From contig NZ_NFJZ01000001.1 in NCBI RefSeq assembly GCF_002160135.1, forward strand, positions 62,001 through 126,000: a DNA stretch of 64,000 bases, given 5' to 3'. Made by a program: the position numbers and the translations under genes. A model generated the notes under the pieces. The model made no database searches and was not told the DNA's origin. It was given only the letters and a program-made list of their open reading frames with translations. The DNA is from Lachnoclostridium sp. An196 (GTDB lineage: Bacteria; Bacillota; Clostridia; Lachnospirales; Lachnospiraceae). Shown here one piece after another: positions 9,370-14,371 of the stretch (position 1 is the first letter of the stretch; each line of letters starts with the position of its first letter).

Positions 9370-9409
9370 ATTTTAAAGTTGCATTTAAAAACTGAATATG
9401 ATAAGATAC

Positions 9410-9707
9410 AGCACAAAGAAAAAGCAGAGAACAGGACTCTTGCCTGCAGAGGCCGACAGGAATATGGCGTCACCGACTGAGAGCGCCGTTTGGAAGAGCA
9501 GGCGAAGGGAACACCTGGGAGCCGGCTGTCTGAAAGAAGAGTAGGTCAGTCCGCAGGCATGCGTTATGTGCAAAAGAGTGGAACCGTATATGTCTGGTAC
9601 TTCTGGTTCGCCGGAGACAAGCAGGCAGGCGGTTCAATGCGGGTGGTACCGCGGGAGATGAATGATCTGTCCCGTCCCGGAATGTAAAAATTCCGGGACG
9701 GTTTTTT
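9410..9707 (+). ncRNA. T-box riboswitch leader (Asn, possibly also Glu) of aspS-gatCAB
   Basis: The segment has T-box landmarks in order: a stem I helix pairing GCCTGC (9441-9446) with GCAGGC (9498-9503); an AGAG bulge; the specifier region GAAGGGAACACCTGGGAG (9504-9521) with AAC at 9510-9512 followed by A; the stem II/IIA region with AGAGTAGG and GCGTTA; an AGAGTGG linker; and the antiterminator sequence GGGTGGTACCGCGG at 9641-9654, whose TGGT binds the tRNA 3' end. A terminator follows. Uncharged tRNA-Asn should raise expression. The base before AAC makes an overlapping GAA (Glu), as in the two-codon T-box reported in Clostridium acetobutylicum. This leader fills the gap between tagD and aspS. 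Confidence 0.9.
9672..9707 (+). terminator. T-box terminator
   Basis: CCGTCCCGGAA pairs perfectly with TTCCGGGACGG around a TGTAAAAA loop, then TTTTTT. The 5' arm overlaps bases that can pair with the T-box sequence, giving the standard terminator/antiterminator choice. Confidence 0.92.
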
Positions 9708-9751
9708 GTGTATAAAAAATTCCGTCCCGGAGAAAACAGGAGGAATGGAAA

Positions 9752-11083
9752 ATGGAGTTTATGACAGGAGTAAAAAAACCAGACACATTGGAACTGCAGG
9801 AACTGTATGAGGAAAGTATGGTGGGAAAGACTGTCCGGGTAAACGGAGCTGTCCATACGATCCGCGATATGGGAGAGGTGGCGTTCATGATCCTTCGCAA
9901 ACGGGACGGACTTCTGCAGTGTGTCTATGAGGAAGAGACTGCGGGATTCGACCTGAAAGATCTGAAAGAAGCCGCCACTGTAGAGGCGGAAGGTATTCTG
10001 GAAAAAGAGGAGCGCGCTCCGGGCGGAATTGAGATCCGGCTGACCGGAATAAAAATTCTTTCTCTTCCCGACGCGCCTATGCCGCTGCCTGTTGCCAAAT
10101 GGAAACTGAATACTTCCCTGGAGGCAAAACTGAATATGCGCTCTGTGTCGCTGCGCAATATCCGGGAGAGAGCGAAGTTCAAACTTCAGGAAGGCATCGT
10201 AAGAGGCTTCCGGGATTTTCTGTATGAGCAGGGATTTACGGAGATTCATACGCCTAAGATCGGAGCCAGGAGCGCGGAAGGAGGCTCCAACCTCTTTAAA
10301 TTGGATTATTTCCATCGTCCGGCAGTGCTGCAGCAGTCGCCGCAGCTCTATAAACAGATGATGGTAGGAGTCTTTGACCGGGTGTTTGAGACCGGGCCGG
10401 TATTCCGGGCGGAGAAACACAATACAAAACGTCATCTGAACGAATATACTTCTCTGGATTTTGAGATGGGTTATATCGACGGCTTTGAAGATATCATGGC
10501 CATGGAAACCGGTTTTCTGCAGTACACCATGAAACTTCTGGAGACGGAATATGCGAAGGAACTGAAGATTCTCGGCATTACGCTTCCGAAGACGGATCAG
10601 ATCCCGGCAGTACGGTTTGACCGGGCGAAAGAACTGGTCGCGGAGAAATACGACCGCAAGATCCGCAATCCTTTCGATCTGGAGCCGGAGGAAGAGAGCC
10701 TGATCGGAAGGTACTTCCAGGAAGAATACGGAGCGGATTTTGTGTTTGTCACCCATTATCCGTCCAAGAAACGTCCGTTTTATGCCATGGATGATCCGGA
10801 GGACAGCCGCTATACTCTGAGCTTTGACCTGTTGTATCACGGCCTGGAGATCACGACAGGAGGCCAGCGTATCCATGATTACCGGATGCTGACGGAGAAG
10901 ATCGCGGCCAGAGGAATGACAGAAGAAGGCCTGGAACAGTATCTGGATACTTTCCGCTATGGGATGCCGCCTCATGGAGGCCTGGGCATCGGACTGGAAC
11001 GCCTGACCATGAAACTGGCGGGAGAAGATAACGTACGAGAGACTACGCTGTATCCGAGAGATCTGAGCAGGCTGGAGCCTTAA
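9752..11083 (+). CDS. aspS: Aspartyl-tRNA synthetase, archaeal type (probably non-discriminating)
   Basis: A 443-residue class II synthetase: an OB-fold anticodon domain (about 20-110), then the catalytic core with motif 2 (FETGPVFRAEKHNTKRHLNEY, near 212) and motif 3 (GLGIGLERLTM near 412). It lacks the insertion domain of bacterial AspRS (about 590 residues), so it is the short archaeal/eukaryal type. In clostridia such enzymes charge both tRNA-Asp and tRNA-Asn with Asp, and GatCAB then amidates Asp-tRNA-Asn. The gatCAB genes downstream and the AAC T-box support this. Start ATG 9752 follows AGGAGG. Non-discrimination is inferred from context. Confidence 0.92.
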   Translation: MEFMTGVKKPDTLELQELYEESMVGKTVRVNGAVHTIRDMGEVAFMILRKRDGLLQCVYEEETAGFDLKDLKEAATVEAEGILEKEERAPGGIEIRLTGIKILSLPDAPMPLPVAKWKLNTSLEAKLNMRSVSLRNIRERAKFKLQEGIVRGFRDFLYEQGFTEIHTPKIGARSAEGGSNLFKLDYFHRPAVLQQSPQLYKQMMVGVFDRVFETGPVFRAEKHNTKRHLNEYTSLDFEMGYIDGFEDIMAMETGFLQYTMKLLETEYAKELKILGITLPKTDQIPAVRFDRAKELVAEKYDRKIRNPFDLEPEEESLIGRYFQEEYGADFVFVTHYPSKKRPFYAMDDPEDSRYTLSFDLLYHGLEITTGGQRIHDYRMLTEKIAARGMTEEGLEQYLDTFRYGMPPHGGLGIGLERLTMKLAGEDNVRETTLYPRDLSRLEP

Positions 11084-11148: not shown

Positions 11149-11442
11149 ATGGCAAATATGATTTCCGATGAAACGATGGAATATGTGGGAATCCTGGCGA
11201 AACTGGAACTCTCGGCCGAGGAACGGGAGCAGGCGAAGAAAGATATGGAGCAGATGCTGGATTATATCGATATGCTGAATACTCTGGATACAGAAGGCGT
11301 GGAACCCATGTCCCATATATTCCCGATCCATAACGTATTTCGGGAAGACGTGGTAGAAAATGACGACGAGCATGAGAAGATACTGGCCAATGCGCCGGCT
11401 GCGAAAGACGGGGCATTCAAAGTGCCGAAGACGGTAGAATAG
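11149..11442 (+). CDS. gatC: Asp-tRNA(Asn)/Glu-tRNA(Gln) amidotransferase subunit C
   Basis: A 97-residue GatC, the small subunit that wraps around GatA and stabilises the GatCAB complex. The typical ETMEYVGILAKLELSAEERE opening and the LDTEGVEPMSHIFP segment (about residues 45-58) are present. AAAAGGAG lies 14 bases upstream of the ATG. It sits between aspS and gatA, all read in one direction. Confidence 0.95.
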   Translation: MANMISDETMEYVGILAKLELSAEEREQAKKDMEQMLDYIDMLNTLDTEGVEPMSHIFPIHNVFREDVVENDDEHEKILANAPAAKDGAFKVPKTVE

Positions 11443-11455
11443 GAGGGGTATGTCG

Positions 11456-12925
11456 ATGAGTCTGATGAGTTTGACGGCCCTGGAACTTGGAAAGAAGATA
11501 CAGGCAAAAGAAGTAAGCGCCGTGGAAGCGGCGAAGGAAGCCCTGGGGCAGATAAAAAAGCTGGACGGATCACTGAACTGTTTCGTGACCGTAGAGGAAG
11601 ACAGCGTACTGAAAAAAGCAGAGGAAGTACAGAAAAAGATAGATGCAGGAGAGCTTGCCGGCCCGCTGGCAGGCGTCCCGGCGGCAATCAAGGATAATAT
11701 GTGCACAGAAGGGGTACGGACGACCTGCAGTTCCAGAATGCTGGAAAATTTTGTGCCCACATACACAGCGGAAGCGGTAAAAAATCTGGAGCAGGCAGGC
11801 GTTGTGGTGATCGGGAAGACCAATATGGACGAATTTGCCATGGGAAGCACGACCGAGACTTCTTATTTTGGTCCTACCAGGAACCCCTGGGCGCCTGAAC
11901 ATGTACCCGGGGGATCTTCCGGAGGAAGCTGTGCGGCAGTGGCAGCCGAGGAATGCTCCTTTGCGCTGGGATCCGATACGGGAGGCTCTATCCGTCAGCC
12001 CAGCTCTTTCTGCGGCGTAACCGGACTGAAACCTACGTACGGGACAGTATCCAGATATGGATTGATCGCTTACGGATCTTCGCTGGATCAGATCGGGCCT
12101 GTCGGGAAGGATGCCGCGGACTGTGCCGCCGTGCTGGAAGCGATCGCGTCTCATGATCCGAAAGACAGCACCTCGATGAAAAGGGATTCCTATGATTTCC
12201 TGTCTGCGTTGGACGAAGGCGTCAGAGGACTTCGGATCGGTATCCCGAGAGATTATTTCGGAGACGGTCTGGATGAAGAAGTAAAAAGCCATATTCTGGA
12301 GGCGGCGAAGGTGCTGGAAAGCAAGGGAGCCGTGCTGGAAGAATTTGACCTGAGCCTGGTGGAATATGCGATTCCTGCTTACTATGTCATCGCGTCGGCG
12401 GAAGCAAGCTCCAATCTGGCCAGATTTGACGGAGTAAAATACGGATACCGTACGCCTGAGTACGAGGGACTTCATAATATGTATAAGAAATCCAGAAGCG
12501 AGGGCTTCGGGGCAGAAGTGAAGCGGAGAATCATGCTCGGTTCTTTTGTGCTGAGTTCAGGCTATTATGACGCGTATTATCTGAAGGCGCTGAAAACAAA
12601 AGCGCTGATCAGGCAGGCCTTTGACCGGGCGTTTGAGAAATACGATGTGATCCTGGGACCGGCCGCGCCTGGGACGGCTCCGAAGCTGGGAGAGTCTTTA
12701 AGCGATCCGCTGAAGATGTATCTGGGAGACATTTACACGGTTTCCGTTAATCTGGCAGGTCTTCCGGGCATTACGGTTCCCTGCGGCACAGACGGCAAAG
12801 GGCTTCCCATCGGCATGCAGCTGATCGGAGACTGTTTCCAGGAAAGAAAGATTCTTCGGGCGGCACACGCCTATGAACAGACCAGAGCATATGCACACTG
12901 CCCTTTGGCGGCAGAACAGGTATAG
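11456..12925 (+). CDS. gatA: Asp-tRNA(Asn)/Glu-tRNA(Gln) amidotransferase subunit A
   Basis: About 489 residues, the amidase-family subunit that releases ammonia from glutamine. The catalytic Ser-cisSer-Lys set is visible: Lys in AAIKDNM (about residue 79), the cis-Ser and nucleophile Ser in GGSSGGSCA and DTGGSIRQPSSFCG (about 150-180). Three ATGs are close together; ATG 11456 lies seven bases after AGGAGGGG, better than ATG 11450. The gap to gatC is 13 bases. With gatB it amidates mischarged Asp-tRNA-Asn and Glu-tRNA-Gln in the cytoplasm. Confidence 0.96.
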   Translation: MSLMSLTALELGKKIQAKEVSAVEAAKEALGQIKKLDGSLNCFVTVEEDSVLKKAEEVQKKIDAGELAGPLAGVPAAIKDNMCTEGVRTTCSSRMLENFVPTYTAEAVKNLEQAGVVVIGKTNMDEFAMGSTTETSYFGPTRNPWAPEHVPGGSSGGSCAAVAAEECSFALGSDTGGSIRQPSSFCGVTGLKPTYGTVSRYGLIAYGSSLDQIGPVGKDAADCAAVLEAIASHDPKDSTSMKRDSYDFLSALDEGVRGLRIGIPRDYFGDGLDEEVKSHILEAAKVLESKGAVLEEFDLSLVEYAIPAYYVIASAEASSNLARFDGVKYGYRTPEYEGLHNMYKKSRSEGFGAEVKRRIMLGSFVLSSGYYDAYYLKALKTKALIRQAFDRAFEKYDVILGPAAPGTAPKLGESLSDPLKMYLGDIYTVSVNLAGLPGITVPCGTDGKGLPIGMQLIGDCFQERKILRAAHAYEQTRAYAHCPLAAEQV

Positions 12926-12940: not shown

Positions 12941-14371
12941 ATGAGCAAACAGTATGAGACCGTGATCGGCCTGGAAGTCCATGTGGAGCTGGCCACCAAA
13001 ACGAAGATCTTCTGCTCCTGCAGTACGGAGTTCGGCGGAGCGCCGAATACGCACACATGCCCGGTCTGTACGGGAATGCCGGGTTCTCTGCCGGTGCTGA
13101 ACAAGCAGGTGGTGGAATATGCGGCGGCAGTAGGTCTTGCCACCAACTGCTCGATTACCAGAAAATGTAAATTTGACCGGAAGAACTATTTTTATCCGGA
13201 TAATCCCCAGAATTATCAGATTTCCCAGCTCTATGAGCCGATCTGCCGGAATGGATATGTGGAGATCGATACTCCGTCCGGAACGAAAAAGATCGGTATC
13301 CATGAAATCCATATGGAAGAAGACGCCGGCAAACTGGTTCATGACGAGTGGGAAGACTGCTCACTGGTGGATTTCAACCGAAGCGGAGTTCCGCTGATCG
13401 AGATTGTATCCGAACCGGATATGAGAAATGCAGACGAAGTGATCGCATATCTGGATAAACTGAGACTGATCATCCAATACCTGGGCGCATCTGACTGCAA
13501 GCTGCAGGAAGGCTCCATGAGGGCGGATGTGAACCTGTCAGTGCGGGAGGTTGGGTCAGAGAAACTGGGAACCCGTACAGAGATGAAGAACCTGAACTCT
13601 TTCAAAGCGATCGCCAGAGCCATAGAGGGCGAAAAGGAACGTCAGATAGAACTGTTGGAGATGGGGCGGCCGGTGATTCAGGAAACCAGAAGATGGGATG
13701 ACAACAAAGAAGCATCTCATGCCATGCGTTCCAAGGAGGATGCGCAGGATTACCGTTATTTCCCGGAACCGGACCTGCCTCCGGTGATCATCAGCGATGA
13801 ATGGCTGGAAGAGATCAGAGCCAGACAGCCGGAGCTCAGGACAGAGAAACTGATCCGTTATAAAAAAGAATTTGATATCCCGGATTATGACGCGCAGATT
13901 ATTACTTCTTCCAAGAAAATGGCAGACTTGTTCGAAGCGACGACGGCTCTCTGCGGGAAGCCCAAAAAGGTATCCAACTGGCTGATGGTAGAGACCATGC
14001 ATTTGATGAAAGAACATGATATGGAAGCAGATGATCTGAAATTCTCTCCGGAGAATCTGGCGAAACTGATCGAGCTGGCAGATGCCGGAACCATCAACAG
14101 CTCGGTGGCAAAAGAGGTGTTCGAGAAAGTATTTCTGGATGACATTGATCCGGATCAATATGTGGAAGAGCATGGTTTGAAGACTGTGAGCGACGAAGGA
14201 GAACTGCGCTCTGTTATTGAACAGGTCATCGCCTCTAATCCTCAGTCAGTGGAGGATTATCGTAATGGAAAAGAAAAAGCCATCGGCTTCCTGGTCGGAC
14301 AGACGATGAAAGCCATGAAAGGAAAAGCGAATCCGGGGCTGGTGAATCAGATATTAAAAGAACTGCTGTAA
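12941..14371 (+). CDS. gatB: Asp-tRNA(Asn)/Glu-tRNA(Gln) amidotransferase subunit B
   Basis: A 476-residue GatB, the kinase-like subunit that phosphorylates the Asp/Glu on tRNA and passes ammonia to it. The family opening YETVIGLEVHVELATKTKIFC, the Zn-site cysteines (Cys-x-Cys near 25, CPVC near 44), the HIEEDAGK-like HMEEDAGKLVHD (about 126) and the helical GatB/YqeY tail at about 330-476 are all visible. AGGGAGGAGAG precedes the ATG. It is the last gene of the T-box operon; no strong terminator directly follows. Confidence 0.96.
   Translation: MSKQYETVIGLEVHVELATKTKIFCSCSTEFGGAPNTHTCPVCTGMPGSLPVLNKQVVEYAAAVGLATNCSITRKCKFDRKNYFYPDNPQNYQISQLYEPICRNGYVEIDTPSGTKKIGIHEIHMEEDAGKLVHDEWEDCSLVDFNRSGVPLIEIVSEPDMRNADEVIAYLDKLRLIIQYLGASDCKLQEGSMRADVNLSVREVGSEKLGTRTEMKNLNSFKAIARAIEGEKERQIELLEMGRPVIQETRRWDDNKEASHAMRSKEDAQDYRYFPEPDLPPVIISDEWLEEIRARQPELRTEKLIRYKKEFDIPDYDAQIITSSKKMADLFEATTALCGKPKKVSNWLMVETMHLMKEHDMEADDLKFSPENLAKLIELADAGTINSSVAKEVFEKVFLDDIDPDQYVEEHGLKTVSDEGELRSVIEQVIASNPQSVEDYRNGKEKAIGFLVGQTMKAMKGKANPGLVNQILKELL

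Follow-up and report, generated by a model that had tools for sequence, protein, structure and literature searches.

A T-box leader upstream of an aspS-gatCAB operon in Lachnoclostridium is probably read at AAC (Asn) alone, the overlapping GAA (Glu) triplet being predicted to be closed by pairing

Which tRNA, or tRNAs, would be sensed by a T-box leader whose specifier region spells GAAC, a string that contains an Asn codon (AAC) and, one base upstream, a Glu codon (GAA)? Flexible T-boxes that read two codons are held to be widespread, and the two-codon T-box of Clostridium acetobutylicum was reportedly described by Saad et al. in 2012 (J Biol Chem) and by Saad et al. in 2013. The question is raised by the window analysed here, a stretch of 64,000 nucleotides from Lachnoclostridium sp. 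An196, in which GAAC is present at 9509–9512 inside a T-box. The first-pass annotation had suggested that this could be a second natural case, in a different lineage, of a T-box reading two tRNAs. In such a dual-codon T-box a single loop would accept tRNA-Asn at AAC and tRNA-Glu at GAA, making the operon responsive to both pools. The precedent it invoked is in the literature: PMC4052509 describes a T-box on the transamidation operon of C. acetobutylicum in which Asn and Glu codons overlap and both tRNAs are bound, and the present leader resembles it in both the type of operon and the overlap.

The leader is a genuine T-box lying upstream of aspS-gatCAB. When the stretch was searched alone, the Rfam covariance model RF00230 matched 9418–9682 of the forward strand, on which all features described here lie (75.5 bits, E 9.4e-17, model positions 1–219), which bears out the RNA class assigned by the first-pass annotation. 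The score is below the curated gathering score of 93 and a default scan of the window thus listed only a tRNA. Stem I, Stem II with Stem IIA/B, Stem III and the UGGN T-box bulge were all matched by the model. From the Rfam alignment and folding, Stem I (9424–9523) comprises a lower helix, the specifier loop, an upper helix and an apical region; Stem II has an S-turn-like GAA ... AGUA segment at 9532–9543; and the T-box bulge UGGUACC is at 9644–9650, where UGGU would pair with the NCCA end of a tRNA. A terminator scan identified an intrinsic terminator at 9672–9701, a hairpin of 12 pairs and then six T, whose 5' arm overlaps the 3' arm of the antiterminator in the RF00230 alignment; the two are predicted to compete. 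The sequence of the terminator 5' arm recurs (TTCCGTCCCGGAG) 3' of the terminator at 9719–9731, where it would be able to base-pair with the 3' arm of the hairpin; a leader from the same genus (L081) has a shorter repeat of this kind, and inspection of 12 other leaders by eye gave no obvious one. A probable promoter, TTGCAT and TAAGAT with 17 nt between them (9379–9407), was picked out by eye; a consensus scan gave none for this region, and some relatives have TTGCAA at a comparable place.

Downstream of the terminator lie aspS (9752–11083), gatC (11149–11442; TIGR00135), gatA (11450–12925; TIGR00132) and gatB (12941–14371), to which a genome search for GatB_N added no second match. The AspRS is of the archaeal type and matches NF003483 (565.4 bits) and the model for non-discriminating enzymes, TIGR00458 (aspS_nondisc, 414.3 bits; cut-off 368.4), both above cut-off, which suggests that it is non-discriminating. 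The genome, searched as an assembly that is 97% complete on 30 contigs, also encodes one bacterial-type AspRS, AsnRS, GlnRS, GluRS and AsnA; a fourth class-II match is LysRS by eye, and no AsnB was found in it, one weak Asn_synthase match being in a protein read as LarE-like. With AsnRS, GlnRS and a putative non-discriminating AspRS/GatCAB, the cell would have two routes to Asn-tRNA and a direct one to Gln-tRNA. The first-pass annotation had the operon making both Asn-tRNA and Gln-tRNA: the pairing of a non-discriminating AspRS with GatCAB stands, but the premise that the operon must serve Gln is weak given GlnRS and the set of tRNAs and enzymes, AsnRS and AsnA included, and the presence of GlnRS counts against a leader that senses Glu as well.

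PMC4206432 states that no bacterium was then known with both routes to Gln-tRNA, that GatCAB alongside GlnRS may serve tRNA-dependent Asn synthesis, and that a U1-A72 pair in tRNA-Asn is linked to GatCAB; it also cautions that with an Asn synthetase and a specific AspRS, GatCAB may not form Asn-tRNA. The source genome does have an Asn synthetase (AsnA), but its operon AspRS falls in the non-discriminating family by model, and its tRNA-Asn(GUU) has U1-A72 and G73 as read by eye. Taken together, the putative non-discriminating AspRS, GatCAB and a tRNA-Asn with U1-A72 would fit an operon for tRNA-dependent Asn synthesis. The arrangement is like the redundancy of Deinococcus and Thermus, in which, according to the same source, an archaeal-type second AspRS and GatCAB exist beside AsnRS and GlnRS; it is unlike it in that the source genome has AsnA and the operon a T-box. 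The two tRNA-Gln species of the source genome (L049) differ by eye at the end of the acceptor stem, with A1-U72 in tRNA-Gln(CUG) and, like tRNA-Asn, U1-A72 in tRNA-Gln(UUG). There are eleven T-box matches in this genome (E up to 1), and by eye a G precedes the codon in at least three, namely L001 (Cys), L010 (the aspS-gatCAB leader) and L011 (Ile). A standard-register AAC was absent by eye from the other ten and the contigs of asnS and asnA gave no T-box match, which leaves the aspS-gatCAB leader as the single Asn T-box among these matches.

Within Stem I, the Rfam alignment places AAC (9510–9512), A9513 and CC in the standard specifier position, a register also given by leader comparison, and GAA occupies 9509–9511 in the −1 frame; on the string, the register and the overlap the first-pass annotation was therefore correct. 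An overlapping second frame is to be expected, as any specifier yields a triplet one base upstream, and TBDB has two or three possible frames in 2,884 and 3,551 of 22,693 sequences counted. The AGUA/GAA S-turn motif is absent from the Stem I specifier loop, the 5' side of which reads GACUC (9435–9439) instead. This motif is common but not obligatory in T-boxes and its absence thus does not exclude membership of the class. Stem II of the same leader retains its GAA/AGUA segment.

In the fold of Stem I, 9432–9435 pairs with 9514–9517, A9436 lies opposite AACA, C9437-U9438-C9439 pairs with G9509-G9508-G9507 and the upper helix follows, CUCUU being paired with AAGGG and a tight A/AACA loop left open. 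The minimum-energy fold of the whole leader did not reproduce the Stem I of the Rfam alignment, and Stem I alone folds no better than shuffles (z −0.78). G9509 has a predicted unpaired probability of 0.03, and the predicted cost of opening is 0.01 kcal/mol for AAC against 2.26 kcal/mol for GAA. By secondary-structure prediction, then, the two codons are not both accessible, GAA being closed, which argues against use of the second codon and comes close to placing a single codon with no slack. The extra cost for GAA over AAC has a median of 0.99 kcal/mol in 134 leaders of this GACU class with G, as against about 0 in 69 stems with the canonical loop (a set in which some leaders recur and a small number of matches are due to chance).

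The comparison was extended to leaders of the same operon in other genomes. Of 397 genomes from the bacterial family to which the source belongs, 126 gave an AspRS2 match, and the DNA upstream was scanned at 115 loci (30 loci, 80 more matches and five further loci), with a T-box core in 94 and none in 21. Four cores from outside the family (L053, L054, L078 and L079) were set aside, leaving 90 with the source leader (L051) included, of which 84 were read by script, four by eye (L109, L121, L150 and L178) and two (L103 and L183) lacked a readable Stem I. All 88 readable leaders have AAC, the script reading having required it, and 86 of them have G at −1 (82/84 by script and 4/4 by eye), the exceptions being L142 (C) and L167 (U); in L175 the script took the wrong AAC and the right one also has G at −1. 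Position −3 changes often in these leaders, unlike −1, and to judge from this comparison the near-invariance of the −1 G is beyond chance, a point in favour of the dual-codon proposal. It also means that the leader is not an isolated second case, since G-AAC is common to the family.

A pattern with a free codon (GACT..CTGAGAG..GG-NNN-AC..GGAGC) matched in 103 of the 397 genomes; apart from G356:C3, which is not a T-box, all matches show AAC, either within the matched string or within the locus, and in this search the GACU specifier-loop class was seen with no codon other than Asn. For genomes on that list that lack an AspRS2 match, 23 cases were fetched, and in 21 of them (L265–L267, L270–L276, L278–L283 and L285–L289) this leader precedes a bacterial-type AspRS with gatC, gatA and gatB; of the remaining two, L284 ends within AspRS and L277 has gatCAB directly, without AspRS. 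The leader thus goes with the operon and not with the type of AspRS. It is also present in the named Lachnospiraceae records L367, L374 and L395 (L374 by title). Clostridium-type AspRS2 operons L327, L328, L329, L330, L339 and L080 have two T-box cores in tandem with, by eye, a GAC Asp-type specifier.

Across the leader family, GACUC or a close variant faces GGG, or a variant of it, on the 5' side of the codon, and this helix was examined in 138 leaders obtained by merging identical sequences (162 to 139) and dropping L178 as mis-extracted; GACU is present in 127 and close variants in 11, the script for this set having demanded such motifs. Pair 9439:9507 covaries: it is formed in 129 of 138 leaders (shuffle mean 106.7, maximum 114, reached in 0/2000 shuffles), as C-G, U-A, G-C, A-U or G-U. 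The middle pair (U9438-G9508) is formed in 138/138 and scarcely varies, while 9437:9509 covaries weakly (133/138 against a shuffle mean of 131.1, reached in 75/2000), with one U-G, one G-U and five mismatches; these shuffles ignore the relatedness of the leaders. Part of the set came from a pattern demanding GG before the codon, which biases its count of G; the 86/88 given above is unbiased. By this comparison the helix appears well supported at its outer end (9439:9507) and no more than plausible at the pair with G9509. CAAC, in which a Gln codon (CAA) overlaps the Asn codon, occurs with GACC on the 5' side in L142, L397 and L402, upstream of AspRS2. The C or U at −1 in these three and in L167, all GACU-class leaders, speaks against dual reading.

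As a control, a canonical Asn-loop pattern, with the AGUA/GAA motif included and the −1 base free, was searched for in two sets of 391 and 398 genomes. Most matches are chance, and true T-boxes were selected on inspection of the apical loop and T-box core (left out here were, for instance, L220–L222, L225, L226, L290, L294, L295, L297, L300, L303, L305–L307 and L309), with downstream genes identified by tblastn or ORF reading; L268 was read by eye and counted, L247 and L053, being the same leader, enter as one, and L322–L325 repeat L224 and L238–L240. In the 23 leaders of AsnRS/AsnA the −1 base is G in 11, T in eight and A in four, a count that excludes L317 (G; gene read by eye as AsnA). G stands there in 4/6 leaders of AsnB and in 5/9 of hisS-like genes, aspS having been seen behind hisS only in L326. 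The hisS-like leaders with AAC (L227, L291, L292, L293, L296, L298, L299, L302 and L308; genes by eye) have G, A or C at −1. Before AspRS2 or AspRS, with gatCAB visible or not, the count is 20/23, the exceptions being L263 (A) and L301 and L343 (T); this group adds leaders found through AspRS2 itself, and so has two gathering routes, and leaves out AspRS2 leaders with an Asp codon by eye (L054, L080, L327–L330, L339 and others) and unreadable ones. The idea that a −1 G is exclusive to transamidation leaders is ruled out by its presence before AsnRS/AsnA, AsnB and hisS.

G at −1 is nonetheless enriched before AspRS/GatCAB, at 20/23 versus 11/23 for AsnRS/AsnA (Fisher p 0.011) and versus 20/38 for all other Asn leaders counted (Fisher p 0.011), in tests that ignore relatedness. 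This enrichment is modest, and it is the best evidence that we have for dual reading, which it would keep alive even where prediction for the aspS-gatCAB leader leaves a single codon with almost no slack. It falls to 25/32 (p 0.025) if the nine hisS leaders, five with G, join the AspRS side. The −1 G is also frequent where Glu has no obvious role, as before AsnRS/AsnA, and three canonical AspRS loops lack it. In canonical loops the G is mostly not predicted to be paired, and an account of G(−1) by pairing alone is ruled out, since canonical AspRS/GatCAB leaders retain it mostly unpaired. According to PMC7583486, a specifier in Stem II-bearing T-boxes makes a C-rule contact to G34, which GAA would not make; yet GAA is the usual Glu specifier.

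The T-box bulge bears on the same choice. UGGU at 9644–9647 is predicted to form a Watson-Crick pair with A73 of tRNA-Glu(UUC) and a wobble with G73 of tRNA-Asn, a fit that favours Glu. By script reading, however, UGGU is found in 16/23 AsnRS/AsnA leaders versus 8/22 canonical AspRS leaders, 12 of the latter 22 having UGGC, and UGGU as a pointer to Glu is thus ruled out; TBDB notes similar G-U discriminator pairs for Trp. With the precedent, the conserved G and its enrichment on one side, and the predicted pairing of G9509, the exceptions at −1 and the presence of GlnRS on the other, a dual-codon T-box is unlikely here, and the Glu reading of GAAC is weakly supported.

The explanation that we consider highly probable is a T-box riboswitch that acts by transcription attenuation and responds to tRNA-Asn(GUU) alone, read in the AAC register, with the preceding G mainly structural. 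When Asn-tRNA is short, the anticodon of uncharged tRNA-Asn would pair with AAC at 9510–9512 and its 3' GCCA end with UGGU at 9644–9647; the antiterminator would replace the hairpin at 9672–9701 and aspS-gatCAB would be transcribed, whereupon the AspRS would make Asp-tRNA-Asn and GatCAB amidate it to Asn-tRNA-Asn. The G9507-G9509/C9437-C9439 helix may stand in for the usual S-turn above the codon, leaving the tight A/AACA loop, and the overlapping GAA is, on this model, probably a by-product of RNA folding and not a second sensor. In support of tRNA-Asn, the AAC register is the same as in AsnRS, AsnA and AsnB T-boxes; against a reading by tRNA-Asn only count the weak covariation of 9437:9509, the better fit of UGGU to A73, and the enrichment of G in canonical loops mostly without pairing.

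Two further alternatives fare less well. In a breathing switch, tRNA-Asn would read AAC in the closed loop and tRNA-Glu would invade by opening C9437-G9509 at a higher threshold; we consider this quite improbable, and if true the CAAC leaders L142, L397 and L402 would swap Glu for Gln. That AAC alone is read and the G is conserved through common ancestry, with no structural or coding role, would agree with its presence in about half of AsnRS/AsnA T-boxes, its mostly unpaired state in canonical loops and the weak covariation of 9437:9509, but is very unlikely given G in 86/88 leaders across a family whose next variable position in the loop, −3, frequently differs between leaders, and its enrichment before AspRS in other families.

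The tRNA-Asn riboswitch favoured here can be set against known systems. With the canonical asnS, asnA and asnB T-boxes it shares AAC in the same register and a UGGU or UGGC T-box, and differs in that theirs have the AGUA/GAA motif (part of the search pattern) and T or A at −1 in 12/23 before AsnRS/AsnA. The AspRS2 leaders of Clostridium L340 and L347 have a canonical AGUA/GAAG-AAC loop, a type in which −1 is mostly open, whereas −1 is predicted to be paired in the source leader; the best 80 loci of the genome-collection scan include other Clostridium species and not C. acetobutylicum. The leader is a new instance of the transamidation-operon T-box already published, probably read in one register, and its specifier loop without an S-turn is a more unusual feature than the GAAC overlap. 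A limited literature search, which took in PMC7583486, PMC7778990 and PMC2494555, did not turn up an account of the GACU loop class.

For dual sensing by a T-box, the overlap of a second codon is weak evidence, since base-pairing can tie up the −1 position. The same operon occurs with a −1 G that is mostly open (AGUA/GAA loops) or predicted to be paired (GACU class), a natural control set to which the few leaders with C, U or A at −1 add, and the two-codon hypothesis is thereby directly testable. The GACU class itself is a specifier-loop variant in a large bacterial family and is worth a structure.
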